Below are positions 28,905-35,283 of a stretch of 61,240 nucleotides of DNA, in pieces (the stretch's first letter is position 1; each line of letters opens with the position of its first letter). Source of the DNA: Chloroflexota bacterium. GTDB taxonomy: Bacteria; Chloroflexota; Limnocylindria; Limnocylindrales; CSP1-4. The translations under genes were made by a program, and so were the position numbers. The notes under the pieces are model-generated. The model worked only from the letters and a program-made list of their open reading frames with translations. It searched no databases and was not told the origin of the DNA. The DNA lies in contig JADGQK010000006.1 in NCBI GenBank assembly GCA_017881915.1, forward strand, positions 1-61,240, written 5' to 3'.

Positions 28905-29669
28905 TCAGACCGCGGCGAGCGGCACCGAACGGCGGACGAAGGCCGGATCGACGCCGTAGACAAGCTGGATCCGCTCATCGGCCAGAACGTCGTCGGGCGG
29001 TCCGTCGGCCACGACCGCACCTTTGTCGATGAGGATCAGGCGCGGGAAGAAGTGGCCGGCGAGGCCAAGATCGTGGAGCACGGCCACAACCGTTGTTCCG
29101 TCACGCTCGTTCAGGTCGACCAGGAGGGCCATCGTCTCGACCTGGTGCCGGAGGTCCAAATGGACCGTTGGCTCGTCGAGGACCGTGACCGGCGCCGCCT
29201 GGGCGAGGGCCATCGCGATGAGCACGAGCTGCCGCTCGCCGAGGGACAGCTCGCGAACGTCACGACCGGCCAGCGCGCCGATGCCGACCCGCTCGATCGC
29301 AGCCGACACCGCCGCCCGGTCGGCCGCCCGCTGGCCCCGGAACGGGTCCTCGTGCGGCAACCGCCCCAGCCCGACGACTTCCTCGACGCGAGCCGCGAAC
29401 GGGAGAGCCGGCGCCTGGGGCACGACGGACAGCCGCCGCGCGATCGCCTGGCGATCGAGGCGCGCCAGCGCATCACCACCAAGGCGAACCGTGCCCACCC
29501 GCGGCCGGAGGGTGCCGTTCATCGCCCGCAGCAGGCTCGACTTGCCGGCCCCGTTCGGGCCGATGATCGCGACTCGTTCGCCGGGGTCGATCCGGAGGTT
29601 GATGTCCACCAGGACATCACGCGCCCGGTAAGCCGCCCAGACCCCTTCGAACTCGATCATCGCGGTCAC
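28905..29669 (-). CDS. btuD: cobalamin/iron-siderophore ABC transporter ATP-binding protein
   Basis: GPNGAGKSSLLRAMNG Walker A, LSLGERQLVLIAMAL signature, VTVLDEPTVHLD. B12 assignment from riboswitch context. Confidence 0.82.
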   Translation of the reverse strand: MTAMIEFEGVWAAYRARDVLVDINLRIDPGERVAIIGPNGAGKSSLLRAMNGTLRPRVGTVRLGGDALARLDRQAIARRLSVVPQAPALPFAARVEEVVGLGRLPHEDPFRGQRAADRAAVSAAIERVGIGALAGRDVRELSLGERQLVLIAMALAQAAPVTVLDEPTVHLDLRHQVETMALLVDLNERDGTTVVAVLHDLGLAGHFFPRLILIDKGAVVADGPPDDVLADERIQLVYGVDPAFVRRSVPLAAV

Positions 29670-30748
29670 AGCTCGTACGCCGATCGGGTCTGGCGCAGCA
29701 GGATCAGGAAGAACGGGGCCCCGATCACGGCCGTCACGACTCCCACCGGGATCTCGCCGAGCATCCGCGCCACGAGATCCGCGGCGACCATCAGGCTGGC
29801 GCCCAGCACGGCGCTCAGCGGCAGAACTCGGCGCGCATTCGGCCCGACCACGAGGCGGACGAGGTGGGGCACGACGAGGCCGACGAAGCCGACGAGGCCG
29901 GCGACCGACACGGCGGCTGCGGTCACGAGGGAGCCCAGGCCGAGCAGGATCACTCGTTCGCGGCGGACGTCAACGCCGAGGTTGGAGGCGGTCTCCTCGC
30001 CGAGCAGGAACCCGTTGAGGGCCCCGGCCCGGAGCATGATCAGCAGGCTGCCACCGAGGATCAGGGGCGCGGTGCCGGCGAGCTGTAGCCAGGAGCTCCC
30101 GTCGAAGCCGCCCAGCAGGAAGAAGAAGATCTGGCGGAGGTTCGAGCCGGACACGTACATCGTCAGGGCCAGGCCGGCCGCGAGGAGCGAGCCGACGGCA
30201 TAGCCCGTCAGGAGCAGACCGGTCAGCGGGGCCAGCGAACTCGTCCGGCTGAGCCGGTAGACGACGCCCACCGCGAGGAGGGCCCCGGCGAACGCAAACA
30301 CCTGGACGATCCCGAACTCGAAGAGGGCAATCCTGATCGGGATGAGGATCCCGATCGCGGCCCCGAGGGCAGCCCCTGACGCCGTCCCGAGCACGTACGG
30401 GTCGGCGAGGGGGTTCCGGAGCAGGCCCTGGAACGTAGCGCCGGCAACCGACAGGCCGACCCCCACGACCATCGCCGAGAGCACCCGCGGCAGGCGCAGC
30501 TCGAAGACGATCGTCTCGGTGGCCACCGACCAGTGGCTCCCGAGGTCGAGGCCCAACAGCCGGTGGGCCAGGATCGCCAGCGTGTCTCCGGGAGCGATCG
30601 CGACCGTTCCGAAGCCAACCCCGAGGACGAGCGTGACCACGAGCGCAGCAAGGCCTACGCCGAACAGCAGTCCCGGCCGGGACCGGGCGCGATCCAGCCG
30701 ACCCGCAGTCGCGAGTCGGATCCGTCCGGCCTCGGCCCGGGTTGCCAT
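29666..30748 (-). CDS. btuC: FecCD/BtuC-family ABC transporter permease
   Basis: Multi-TM; RLPRVLSAMVVGVGLSVAGATFQGLLRNPLADPYVLGTASGAALGA. Confidence 0.85.
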   Translation of the reverse strand: MATRAEAGRIRLATAGRLDRARSRPGLLFGVGLAALVVTLVLGVGFGTVAIAPGDTLAILAHRLLGLDLGSHWSVATETIVFELRLPRVLSAMVVGVGLSVAGATFQGLLRNPLADPYVLGTASGAALGAAIGILIPIRIALFEFGIVQVFAFAGALLAVGVVYRLSRTSSLAPLTGLLLTGYAVGSLLAAGLALTMYVSGSNLRQIFFFLLGGFDGSSWLQLAGTAPLILGGSLLIMLRAGALNGFLLGEETASNLGVDVRRERVILLGLGSLVTAAAVSVAGLVGFVGLVVPHLVRLVVGPNARRVLPLSAVLGASLMVAADLVARMLGEIPVGVVTAVIGAPFFLILLRQTRSAYEL

Positions 30749-30753
30749 GCGGA

Positions 30754-31881
30754 TTACGGCGTCGCCGACCCGGACGGAAGGGCTGGCGGTGCTGCCGAGG
30801 GCGCCTGGGAAGCACCCGCTGGAGCGAGTGATGGCAGCACGAGATCGGGATGGATGGCCAGTGCCAGGAGGCGCAGACCATCCACGAGGCGCGGCCCGGG
30901 CCGGCTCACGATGAGGTCATCGATCGGCTCGATCGCGCCGTCCCTGACCGCCGTCATCGCGTTCCAGCCGGGTCGAGCGGCAACGATCGCCGCGGTCGTG
31001 CCATAGGCCGAGTCACCCAGCACGATCACCTGGGGGTCGGCCGCGACGAGCTTCTCGAGCGGAATGCTGAAGAGCGCCGGATCACCGGTGGTGATCGGGT
31101 CGCCACCGGCGTCGTCGATCTCCTGGGCCAGGAATGAATCGGGCGCCGGGCCATAGATGTCCTTCGTCGCGTCGAGCTCGTAGAACGTACGCGGGTGGGG
31201 CAGGCCGCTGGTCGCAGCCCTCACCGCGTCGATCCCAGCCTGCATCGAAGCCGTGAGCCGGCGGGCGTTCGCGCTGGCACCCACGGCATCCCCGATCAGG
31301 TTGATATCCGCCAGGACGCCGCCGATGTCCGGCGCGTAGACGACCAGGACGGGCACACCCAGGCTGCGCAGCTGGGTCACGGCCGCGGGCTTGTTGAAGC
31401 CGTTGCCGCCGGCGATCACGAGGTCCGCCCGCAGGCCGACGATCTTCTCGACGTCAACCGAGGAATACGTCGCGACGTGTGGCAGGCTCTTCACCTGGGC
31501 CGGGTAGTCGTCGAAGTCGCCGTCCGCGGCAACCCGATCGCCGGCCCCGATGGCATACAGGGTCTCCGTGGCGGCGGGAGTCAGCGAAACGATCCGGCGC
31601 GGCTCTGACTTGAGGGTGACCTGGTTGTGCTCGTCGTCGGTCAGCGCCAGGGGGAAGCTGGGGCCGGCGCTTGAGCTGACGACCGGGCTGGAGTTCGGCG
31701 CGACGCCGGCGGACGTCGATCCGCTCGGAGCCGCTGTGGCGGCCGGGTTCGCGGTCGGGCCAGGGCTGAACCCGGACGAGGCGCCGGTGCAGGCGCCGAC
31801 GACCAGTATCGTTGCGACGGCCAGCGCCCCGATCCGGGCGAGTGTCCGGCGACGAAGAACACGAGGCCCCTCGCCACGCAT
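30754..31881 (-). CDS. btuF: BtuF-like ABC transporter substrate-binding lipoprotein
   Basis: Lipobox TILVVGACTG; RRIVSLTPAATETLYAIGAGDRVAADGDFDDYP. Confidence 0.83.
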   Translation of the reverse strand: MRGEGPRVLRRRTLARIGALAVATILVVGACTGASSGFSPGPTANPAATAAPSGSTSAGVAPNSSPVVSSSAGPSFPLALTDDEHNQVTLKSEPRRIVSLTPAATETLYAIGAGDRVAADGDFDDYPAQVKSLPHVATYSSVDVEKIVGLRADLVIAGGNGFNKPAAVTQLRSLGVPVLVVYAPDIGGVLADINLIGDAVGASANARRLTASMQAGIDAVRAATSGLPHPRTFYELDATKDIYGPAPDSFLAQEIDDAGGDPITTGDPALFSIPLEKLVAADPQVIVLGDSAYGTTAAIVAARPGWNAMTAVRDGAIEPIDDLIVSRPGPRLVDGLRLLALAIHPDLVLPSLAPAGASQAPSAAPPALPSGSATP

Positions 31882-31939
31882 GGGAGGGGCAACGGACGGG
31901 TTCACTGGATGCCTACCCTTTCTCTCGAAGGTTCGAGCA

Positions 31940-32085
31940 CGAACCGAAGGGTCGGCGACCGGACTCGCGCGGTCGCTCCTGGGGAGGAGCGCCGCGACCA
32001 CCGTAGCGGGACTGTGCCGGGATCTCACCGGCTTCGCGACCCAGCGGTCTGGCGATGATGTTGGTTCCCTGAGCCTAGCAGACGA
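31940..32085 (-). ncRNA. Cobalamin riboswitch (AdoCbl-type core)
   Basis: On the minus strand GCGAAGCCGGTGAGATCCCGGCACAGTCCCGCTACGGT followed by GAGTCCGGTCGCCGACCC, matching the B12 core; located upstream of btuFCD. Ends approximate. Confidence 0.85.
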
Positions 32086-32242
32086 CCCGCCGAATCGCAG
32101 GTGAGTCGCAGCTAAGCGTGGCCTGTGATCCTGCGAGTCCGCTTGGACCCAGAAGAGCCGCCCTTCGCTCAACGCCGCCGGCAGCGCCGCCGTCCAGCTT
32201 CGCCGTGCAACTCCGCCCTGGACTCCGCCGGAGGAGGTCCCG

Positions 32243-33007
32243 ATGGATTTTGGCGTTCGTTGGCGACGGGCGGTCGCCCTGCCCCTGCTTGCGATCGTGG
32301 TGGTGCTCGGACCGGGGGCGAGCCCAACGCGGGCCGCCTACCAGGCCAGCGCCGACTCGAACGTTTCGGCCTTTCGCAGCCCATGTGTCGGCTTCCAGGA
32401 CAGCCACCCCGCCCAGATGCTGGCGCTCGCCGTCAGCGGCCTCCGTTCACTCGGCTACGCGGTGGCGGGCTACTCCGGGGCGGCTTTCACCCGAAGCGCC
32501 GTGCTCAGCCGGACGGTCAGCGACTTCGGCTTCTACGTCCATTCCCATGGCGACAACTACTGGTACGCGCCGGACCAGCGACGCTACAACGGCTTCCGGG
32601 AAGACTCGGGCGACTGCAGCCAGGCGGTGATCTTCTCGCCCCAGATCGCCGCCGCCCGGGCCGGCCGCTTCACGAACCTCGTGGTCGTCTCCACGTGCCA
32701 CAATGCCGATCCCTCCACCACCCTCCCGGCCGCCTTCGGAATCAATCGAACCAAGGTCCAGGCCGGAGCCAGCCATTTCTTCCTGGGCTACCTCGGGATC
32801 GCCTACGACAACGACGAGCAGGCATTCGAGACCGCCTTCTGGTCGGCTCTCGAGCACGGCCGGAGTGTCGGCGCAGCGTTCGACCTCGGCCTGCTCCAGA
32901 ACTTCAGCCACTCGCTCGATGCCGACTGGTGGGGCACGTATGGCTGGTCCGGGCGAGCGGGGGCGGCAACGTTCTGTCCGCGCTGCAACGTGGCGGGCGG
33001 GCGATGA
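32243..33007 (+). CDS. secreted caspase/CHAT-like (clan CD-like) putative protease
   Basis: Signal peptide; DFGFYVHSHGDN (His-Gly block), NLVVVSTCHNAD (hydrophobic strand then Cys), AGASHFFLGYLG, FETAFWSALEHGRSVGAAF. SD ggaggagg upstream. Confidence 0.6.
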   Translation: MDFGVRWRRAVALPLLAIVVVLGPGASPTRAAYQASADSNVSAFRSPCVGFQDSHPAQMLALAVSGLRSLGYAVAGYSGAAFTRSAVLSRTVSDFGFYVHSHGDNYWYAPDQRRYNGFREDSGDCSQAVIFSPQIAAARAGRFTNLVVVSTCHNADPSTTLPAAFGINRTKVQAGASHFFLGYLGIAYDNDEQAFETAFWSALEHGRSVGAAFDLGLLQNFSHSLDADWWGTYGWSGRAGAATFCPRCNVAGGR

Positions 33008-33900
33008 ACCGCTCCGGCGATTCGCGACGTCGCGTCGCGCTGCTCTCCCTTGTCGCCCTGGGAGGTGGCTTGATGACCGTGGGGTTCAGCCGGTCGACGC
33101 CAGGTCTGGCAAGCACGGAGGTCCAGGGTCGCCTCGCTGCTTCCCACGTGGCGGCGACGGTCGTCGCCCTGTCTGCCGAGGTCGAGACCCATCTTGGGAT
33201 CCCGGCACCGGCCAGCCGATCGGTCGAACGAACGACGGACGCCCTCACGGGCCTCGTCCTGGACGAGGTCACAGATCTCGATGCCGGTGGCACGCCCACC
33301 GCGATCTCGCGCTTCGACCCGGGAGGCCAGCTCGTCTCATCGGTTCGACTTGGGTTCGTCGCATCGGCCGGCCCGTCGGTCTCGGCAGGAAGCGCGGCCA
33401 GGATCGCGAGCGGGATGCTGGCCGGCCTGCACATGGCGGCGCCCGGGAATGCGGCGGTCACGCCCCGGGCCGCCGGCGGGTGGCTGGTCCGCTGGGTGCG
33501 CCTCGTCGGGGCGATTCCCGTGCCGGGCGATGGCGTGGCGGTGCAGCTCGCGGGCGACGGATCGTTCCACGGAATCGTCCGGACCCAGCACGCGTTGGCG
33601 AAGATGCCTGCGGTGCTCATCGACCCGGCCCGGGTCCGGGTCCTGACCGGGGCACGACTCGACCGGTGGTTCACGGCCGACGTACGTGCAGATGCCTCGG
33701 TCTCCGCGCCGGCCCTCGCCTGGATCGCCCCGAACGAGACGTTCGGGGACGCGATCCCGGCTGGCGCAGGGGGCACGATCCGGCTGGCCTGGATCGTGCG
33801 GGTCACGACAAGCGGAGCCCTGGCCGAACGGCTGGCCGGCCTCGAGCTGGCGTTCGACGCCGGCGACGGAGCACCCCTCGGTGGGGACATCCTGGAGTGA
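33004..33900 (+). CDS. exported protein, PepSY/FTP propeptide-like (tentative)
   Basis: N-terminal signal; GWLVRWVRLVGAIPVPGDGVAVQLAGDGSFHGIV and AWIVRVTTSGALAERLAGLELAFDAGDGAPLGGD. ATGA overlap with the previous gene. Confidence 0.55.
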   Translation: MNRSGDSRRRVALLSLVALGGGLMTVGFSRSTPGLASTEVQGRLAASHVAATVVALSAEVETHLGIPAPASRSVERTTDALTGLVLDEVTDLDAGGTPTAISRFDPGGQLVSSVRLGFVASAGPSVSAGSAARIASGMLAGLHMAAPGNAAVTPRAAGGWLVRWVRLVGAIPVPGDGVAVQLAGDGSFHGIVRTQHALAKMPAVLIDPARVRVLTGARLDRWFTADVRADASVSAPALAWIAPNETFGDAIPAGAGGTIRLAWIVRVTTSGALAERLAGLELAFDAGDGAPLGGDILE

Positions 33901-34874
33901 TCCGACCCAGCCTGCTCCTCGCGAGTCTCGCCCTCGTCGGCTGCACGGTTGTGCCGACCGTGCCGTCGCCGGGCGGGACCACCGCCCCCGAGCGCGCCGA
34001 TCGGATCGTCGCGCTCGTCGGTAACGTCGGGGCAATGAGCCTGGTGACCCCCGGCCCGGGCGGTAGCCTGCGGCCCCTGGACGAGGCGGGGCTGCCGCCT
34101 GATGCAGCCTGGTTGTCGAGCAGCGGCGGGCTGCTTCTGGCCACGACCCTGGCCGGCCGGATCGTGTTGGGTGCGACCGGCCCGGGCATCGGCAGTGCCG
34201 GCTCCCGCGGCGGGATCGCCTGGAGCGGCGCCCTGGGCGACCTTGGCGGCAACCATCCGGAACGGGCCTTCGGGTCGCTCGAGCCGGCGGCCGTGCCGGC
34301 GGCCGGCGGCAGGCCCACTACCCGCCGCGTCGCATTCGTCGAAGGCGATCCCGGCTCGGGTGCCGCCGCCCGGCTGATCGTCGAGACCCTGGCCGGGACC
34401 GAGGTCCGACCCATCGACCTGCCCCGAGCGGCCGAAAGCGCGCCCGCCTGGCTACCGGATGGCCGGATCGTGATCGTGGTCCGGGACCAGGCCGACCGGC
34501 CGATGGCGTTGCTGGCCGACCCGGCGAGTGGACGGCTGGCCTCAACCGGCCCGGGGACGCTCCGCTCGGTCGCGATCGGCGGTGCGGCCGTGGCCACGAT
34601 CGGAGCCGACGGGATCGTCCGGATCGGCCCGATCACGACCTGGCTCGGTGGTCAGCCGGGCGAACCCGTCACGGGCATCGGCGCAGACGAGCCGATCCTC
34701 CAGGCACAGCCCTCGGCTGAAGGCGACGAGCTCGCCCTGGTCGTCGCCGACCAGGCCGGGGATGCTGCGTCCATCCGGATCCTCGCGGGGACCGGCGGCT
34801 GGCACGAAACCGCCCGGTTCGGGCTCCCGCCTGGGGCGAACCGGGCGGTCGTGGGCTGGCTCGTGGGGCCCTGA
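33897..34874 (+). CDS. lipoprotein with beta-propeller (TolB/WD40-like) repeats, tentative
   Basis: GTG start in GTGA overlap; lipobox LASLALVGCT; repeated blades such as SAPAWLPDGRIVIVVRDQADRPMALLADPASGRL. Confidence 0.6.
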   Translation: MIRPSLLLASLALVGCTVVPTVPSPGGTTAPERADRIVALVGNVGAMSLVTPGPGGSLRPLDEAGLPPDAAWLSSSGGLLLATTLAGRIVLGATGPGIGSAGSRGGIAWSGALGDLGGNHPERAFGSLEPAAVPAAGGRPTTRRVAFVEGDPGSGAAARLIVETLAGTEVRPIDLPRAAESAPAWLPDGRIVIVVRDQADRPMALLADPASGRLASTGPGTLRSVAIGGAAVATIGADGIVRIGPITTWLGGQPGEPVTGIGADEPILQAQPSAEGDELALVVADQAGDAASIRILAGTGGWHETARFGLPPGANRAVVGWLVGP

Positions 34875-34891
34875 CGCGCCCGAGGGGCGCG
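34875..34891 (+). terminator. terminator-like hairpin after the exported module
   Basis: CGCGCCC-GAG-GGGCGCG perfect 7-bp stem directly after the stop; no U-tract. Confidence 0.4.
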
Positions 34892-34900
34892 CCGCGCGGT

Positions 34901-35176
34901 TCAGGCGCTGACGGCCTGGCGCTCCCCGATCAGAACGGCCTCGGGTTCCTCGGGCACCATCGCGCCCAGGATCTTGTGAATCGTGAGCAGATGGACGCAG
35001 CTGCCCCAGCTCTCGAAATAGTGGCAGGTGCAGCGCCACACTCCGGCAGTCAGGCTCACCCGATGGGTGTCGTTGTCGCCACGGAACGTCAGCGAGAGCT
35101 CGTCGATCGAGACCCGATCGTGCTCGCGAGCGTAGCGATTTGCCTTTTCGACCTTGCCGATGAGCGAGCTGTGCAT
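34901..35176 (-). CDS. small SWIM-type zinc-finger protein
   Basis: WRCTCHYFESWGSCVHLLTIHKIL = CxCx(n)CxH. Confidence 0.7.
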   Translation of the reverse strand: MHSSLIGKVEKANRYAREHDRVSIDELSLTFRGDNDTHRVSLTAGVWRCTCHYFESWGSCVHLLTIHKILGAMVPEEPEAVLIGERQAVSA

Positions 35177-35283
35177 GCTCCTGGACCTCCATCGCCCTGA
35201 CCTGGGCGCTGTCGAGGCCGCCGTCCGATCCTGCACGATCGACCGGTGATGGCGGTCGCTGGAGCGACCATACACCCGCCGGT

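Follow-up and report, generated by a model that had tools for sequence, protein, structure and literature searches.

Gene layout and surroundings of the module

The window, by which we mean the whole stretch of 61,240 nucleotides that was analysed, is one contig from a draft genome of 2.92 Mb that belongs to the Chloroflexota order Limnocylindrales. It contains a module of three plus-strand genes at 32243-33007 (gene 1), 33004-33900 (gene 2), and 33897-34874 (gene 3), and adjoining genes overlap. Gene 1 starts with ATG and encodes 254 aa, predicted to form an exported protein with a caspase/CHAT fold. Gene 2 also starts with ATG, overlaps gene 1 by ATGA, and encodes a 298 aa protein that appears to be PepSY/FTP-propeptide-like. 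Gene 3 starts with GTG, overlaps gene 2 by GTGA, and encodes a putative lipoprotein of 325 aa. The three overlapping genes had been described in an earlier sequence-only reading, and this layout was borne out by the ORF coordinates; every peptide motif quoted there was also found in the sequence. A strong Shine-Dalgarno sequence, CCGGAGGAGGT, was read just before gene 1 (region 32229-32239, plus strand), and CCGGAGGAGG precedes gene 1 in 9 of the 10 relatives listed. The dN/dS values against two congeners were 0.16-0.22 for gene 1, 0.42-0.47 for gene 2, and 0.43-0.45 for gene 3. These values indicate that the three genes are real and not chance ORFs.

The products of all three genes are predicted to be exported, judging from their N-terminal sequences and the conservation of these. 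The N-terminal hydropathy peaks (KD15) were 2.55 for gene 1, 2.01 for gene 2, and 2.33 for gene 3, each higher than in the remaining protein, in agreement with the export-type N-termini that had been proposed for them. In gene 1, the putative signal covers residues 1-32 (32243-32338, plus strand) and consists of RWRR, a hydrophobic core, and TRAA; ARAAYQ-type ends of the signal were found in the relatives.

A cobalamin riboswitch (RF00174) neighbours the module on the minus strand at 31933-32105. It had been described as a B12 riboswitch divergent from the module and is indeed present, although its score of 31.7 bits (E = 3.7e-5) is marginal, the cut-off being 31.5. It serves a divergent btuF-like gene, which matched Peripla_BP_2 with an E-value of 2.3e-26. 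Behind the riboswitch, the minus-strand region 28905-31881 encodes the btuF-like binding protein, a permease, and an ATPase, an arrangement common to most Limnocylindrales loci. A cobalamin link of the module was rejected, because the riboswitch points away from it and the module of genus g3 sits in another neighbourhood. At the other end, the strong hairpin that had been taken to close the module (34875-34891) did not hold up as a terminator: the stem exists, its energy is like that of shuffled sequence (z = -0.54), it lacks a T-run, and terminator prediction called none there. The search for a sigma-70 promoter found none, a result that is uninformative in this GC-rich lineage. The minus-strand gene at 34901-35275 has a small product that shows a SWIM-like CxC...CxH pattern (CTCHYFESWGSCVH) and no Pfam match; the gene is syntenic 3' of the module in many loci of family f1.

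Predicted fold and conserved residues of gene 1

The AlphaFold2 model of gene 1, built with 32 homologues, had a pLDDT of 88 and a pTM of 0.83. Foldseek comparison with the PDB gave 37 matches at E <= 0.001, with CHAT and caspase structures at the top. The best match was the SAVED-CHAT protease 8tl0 (E = 5.7e-6, probability 1.00), and further matches included procaspase-8, other caspases, MALT1, and DdvA. The TM-scores of 0.4-0.5 were moderate; such values are expected when the fold relationship is distant, and clan CD membership is therefore assigned at the level of the fold only. The predicted model thus supports a caspase/CHAT-like fold for gene 1 and agrees with the fold suspected earlier.

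Searching Pfam and NCBIfam with the three window proteins returned nothing significant. The window gene 1 had no match to CHAT (PF12770) at the curated cut-off or to Peptidase_C14. Sequence searches of the PDB gave no match, whether a single sequence or a profile was used. Within the gene 1 family, sub-threshold Pfam matches were obtained to Peptidase_C25 in 4 of 32 members (best E = 0.005) and to CHAT in 2 of 32 (best 0.0081). When the gene 1 profile was compared by hhalign with a set of 28 CHAT domains from genomes of the phylum, the score was 29.5, against a null maximum of 20.2 from 60 block-shuffled controls. The alignment placed STCH (Cys152) on SACE of CHAT, followed by the FETAFWSALEHG...AAF and WWG segments, which is the same register that had previously been drawn by eye; His102 falls outside this local alignment. 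C25 membership was rejected, as the profile comparison remained within its null and the window protein had no C25 match.

The clan CD layout, in which one strand is followed by His and another by Cys, has been described previously (PMC4357240), and gene 1 follows it. In the model, a strand at residues 94-100 precedes Ser101-His102-Gly103 (codons 101-103, 32543-32551, plus strand), and a second strand at 146-150 precedes Thr-Cys, where Cys152 (codon 32696-32698, plus strand) aligned with the catalytic Cys of CHAT. Among 50 unique homologue sequences, His102 and Gly103 (49/49) and Cys152 (47/47) were invariant where covered, as expected from the succession of hydrophobic strand and HG, then hydrophobic strand and Cys, noticed before. 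Cys48 (47/47) and Cys125 (48/48) were also invariant where covered, and the neighbours of the predicted dyad, His100 and His153, vary. Loci L034-L069 were found by the pattern YVHSHGD, which is conserved in them by construction; conservation was therefore recounted including loci from a whole-protein search.

The C-terminus of gene 1 (about 32981-33004; tails of L035-L047) varies among groups. In most homologues of family f1, the last residues are C-x-x-C followed by a single hydrophobic residue, for example CPSCV, CTSCL, or CSRCL. This tail is lengthened by a few residues in the genus of the window, and a GG.RYV tail is found instead in family f2. Gene 1 is present twice in some genomes (L016, L033, L089, L090), namely G038 (C72 and C66), G010 (C81 and C22), and G035 (C93 and C21). 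Both copies in G038 are accompanied by a separate gene 2, and the second copies of G010 and G035 are situated at contig ends.

Clan CD members include self-processors (C80) and legumain-type ligases or transamidases. Gene 1 could thus have the caspase fold without being a hydrolytic protease. It might, for example, be a transpeptidase or ligase, an enzyme that strictly processes itself, or a thiol enzyme other than a protease, and gene 2 might be its substrate-binding subunit. The minimal domain, for which no substrate is evident, and the CxxC-hydrophobic tail of most f1 homologues would fit such an enzyme. On the other hand, the dyad and the overall layout match those of CHAT/caspase-type proteases. 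We consider a non-hydrolytic enzyme quite unlikely and prefer to read gene 1 as a cysteine peptidase.

The PepSY/FTP-like gene 2 and the lipoprotein gene 3

The AlphaFold2 model of gene 2 (pLDDT 85.6) showed repeated units of a helix and four strands after a poorly ordered N-terminus. Its best Foldseek match was the C-terminal PepSY domain of YpeB (5boi, E = 9.2e-8), and the next were the vibriolysin MCP-02 propeptide (3nqz, E = 4.3e-4) and an Aspergillus metalloproteinase (4k90, E = 1.8e-3). The PepSY/FTP-like character formerly read from sequence patterns is borne out by these matches at the level of the predicted fold. The window gene 2 had no PepSY or FTP match in Pfam; in the family, sub-threshold matches were seen to FTP (PF07504) in 5 of 31 members (best 0.0062) and to PepSY (PF03413) in 1 of 31 (0.008). 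When blocks of gene 2 were compared by profile for an internal repeat, no significant similarity was found, and the domain count is therefore taken from the model only.

Genus g3 also contains stand-alone PepSY-like lipoproteins that are related to gene 2 and lack gene 1 (L152:744-3900 region, L153:3731-4813, L154:3432-4313, L155:3593-4468, and L156:3338-4219). Several of them are near histidine ammonia-lyase and urocanase-like genes. No protease was recognised beside these copies, the neighbours being histidine ammonia-lyase, MFS, and others. Because no recognisable protease adjoins, they do not point to another partner, and their occurrence away from any gene 1 speaks against a strict pairing of such proteins with a caspase-fold enzyme.

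Propeptides of M4 proteases also assist folding. Inhibition or stabilisation of the partner has been proposed for PepSY domains that form part of M4/M36 peptidases or are encoded next to SleB (PMC2954215, PMC6660665, PMC13393411). In YpeB, the PepSY part stabilises SleB, and the stronger inhibition in vitro comes from the N-terminal part; stable SleB in spores requires YpeB, including its PepSY region (PMC6660665). Since the PepSY part of YpeB stabilises SleB, inhibition by gene 2 is not the sole reading, and gene 2 might mainly be a folding chaperone or stabiliser of gene 1. However, the structural relatives of gene 2 include propeptides described as inhibitors (PMC2954215). A mainly foldase-like role is considered unlikely; the reading that we retain is a partner in trans that would keep gene 1 folded, inactive, or both.

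Gene 3 is a fast-evolving gene that usually stands third in the module. Its product was proposed to be a lipoprotein with blade-like repeats. The first part is supported by the lipobox LVGC, the Cys of which is nearly invariant in profile A5 and invariant in A6, and by the presence of Lgt and LspA genes in the genome. The second part is weakly indicated: the scores were 0.025 for TolB and 0.17 for PD40, and WD40 matched 2 of 10 relatives (best 0.036), so gene 3 may at most tentatively be called a beta-propeller. BLAST with gene 3 returned close relatives only. Profiles A5 (the side of the window) and A6 (genus g3) matched each other with an E-value of 1.6e-15 (Prob 98.5), indicating that gene 3 is one family. 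In nearly all f1 loci, the slot after gene 2 is occupied by a lipoprotein of 320-385 aa. Gene 3 is missing from the loci of genus g8 and of family f2, whose genomes measure about 1 Mb, and in both groups gene 2 has a lipobox. Every complete locus has a lipobox on gene 2 or gene 3, except L041, which has neither. This complementary pattern, in about 30 non-independent loci, suggests that a membrane anchor may be part of the design.

Pairing of the genes, proposed mechanism, and known systems

The distribution of the module was analysed in 126 Limnocylindrales genomes. Gene 1 was found in 52 and gene 2 in 53, with both in 51 and either in 54 (Fisher P = 1e-31, uncorrected for kinship). The exceptions were G040, where the gene 1 match begins at base 3 of a short contig, G049, where the gene 2 match is near a contig end, and G469, which has a partial stand-alone match. 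In every locus with enough contig flank, genes 1 and 2 adjoin, and this agrees with a conserved gene order. Because the two genes form one operon in related genomes, their co-occurrence does not represent many independent events. Most loci have btuFCD on one side of the module and phosphomannomutase (pmm) and metK on the other; in genus g3, it lies between MFS/glycosyltransferase genes and threonyl-tRNA synthetase/IF-3. The presence in two unrelated neighbourhoods indicates that the unit moved or was rearranged as one. No homologue of the module was found in 400 genomes of the phylum outside Limnocylindrales, and a motif scan of 84,980 species gave none outside this order. Relatives of gene 1 were also not found in viral contigs, phages, or plasmids, and canonical CHAT and C25 proteins were not detected in the sampled Limnocylindria genomes. 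The PADLOC defence models gave only chance-level matches (1 of 32 members each), and thus no support for a defence role.

The three genes could also encode envelope proteins that are transcribed together but share no biochemical function; their pairing would then be an inherited operon structure. All occurrences are within one order, and the correlation between the trees of genes 1 and 2 (Spearman 0.76) is what vertical inheritance alone would give. However, genes 1 and 2 stay together in both neighbourhoods (btuFCD/pmm/metK and MFS/GT/ThrRS), and they are gained or lost together. We regard mere inheritance of the operon as very improbable.

On balance, we favour, with somewhat better than even confidence, an exported clan-CD-like cysteine peptidase that a PepSY partner in trans keeps folded or inactive and a lipoprotein holds at the membrane. 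Gene 1 would be exported by the Sec route and, once outside the cytoplasm, would adopt the fold of a minimal CHAT/caspase-type (clan-CD-like) domain, with His102 and Cys152 as the predicted catalytic dyad and probably with a Cys48-Cys125 disulfide as a brace. Gene 2 would be exported too, and its tandem cystatin-like PepSY/FTP domains would serve as a detached propeptide of gene 1. It may help gene 1 to fold, keep the active site of gene 1 blocked up to its own displacement or degradation, or do both, by analogy with the proposal for YpeB and SleB. Gene 3, or lipidated gene 2, would anchor the complex on the outside of the membrane and thereby keep its activity local. The predicted folds, the conserved dyad, the gene pairing, and the lipobox pattern come from computation; we infer that the proteins form such a complex, and that some trigger would set gene 1 free to cleave a substrate. 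A propeptide that became a separate co-translated protein with a surface anchor is the most economical reading of the module.

The best-known bacterial caspase-fold members act in cytoplasmic defence, and clostripain and the gingipains are secreted caspase-fold peptidases. The established PepSY/FTP link is to M4/M36 metalloproteases and SleB; such domains occur in many exported proteins of bacteria, for most of which no partner is known. In one survey, 46 prokaryotic metacaspases had a helix at the N-terminus, possibly a signal peptide (PMC3501461). Given clostripain, the gingipains, and the possible signal peptides of many metacaspases, secretion by itself is no novelty, and the sequence-only reading overstated how exceptional a secreted caspase-fold protease is in bacteria. 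No paper joining caspase-like or CHAT proteins with PepSY was found in the open-licence literature, and the gene 1 family and its pairing with a PepSY protein in trans appear to be undescribed. The module points to a mode of control of an extracytoplasmic caspase-type enzyme that has not been reported before. The chances seem evenly balanced that it represents a new extracytoplasmic CHAT/caspase-fold peptidase family, with a detached FTP/PepSY propeptide in trans and a lipoprotein anchor, and the first PepSY/FTP regulator of a clan CD enzyme. If true, one regulator fold would serve unrelated secreted enzymes, the caspase fold would gain an extracytoplasmic branch, and the two proteins would offer a system for a direct test of the proposed broad inhibitor role of PepSY.

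CHAT-domain proteases (PF12770) include SAVED-CHAT/CalpL-like, TPR-CHAT Csx29, and separase-related members. They provide the best Foldseek match of gene 1, and their Cys and C-terminal segments (F..fW..l..G...g.Af, WWG) line up in register with those of gene 1; unlike them, gene 1 is a stand-alone protein of 254 aa with a putative export signal, without a TPR or SAVED sensor and without a curated CHAT score. Prokaryotic metacaspases/orthocaspases (C14) share the caspase fold, and some have N-terminal TM- or signal-like helices (PMC3501461), whereas gene 1 has no Peptidase_C14 match and no PepSY partner of metacaspases was described in the papers found. Gingipains (C25) and clostripain (C11) are extracellular and have the His-Gly/Cys dyad that is predicted in gene 1, and C25 is the most frequent sub-threshold Pfam match in its family; their regulatory regions, however, are in cis, and the C25 profile comparison of gene 1 was within its null. 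In the YpeB-SleB pair of Bacillus spores, a secreted lytic enzyme likewise depends on a separate PepSY protein that is encoded together with it, but SleB is a lytic transglycosylase rather than a caspase-fold peptidase, and the module here is not spore-related. The FTP/PepSY propeptides of M4/M36 metalloproteases (vibriolysin, fungalysin) resemble gene 2 in predicted fold; theirs are fused to the metalloprotease, whereas gene 2 is separate and lies beside a putative caspase-fold protein.
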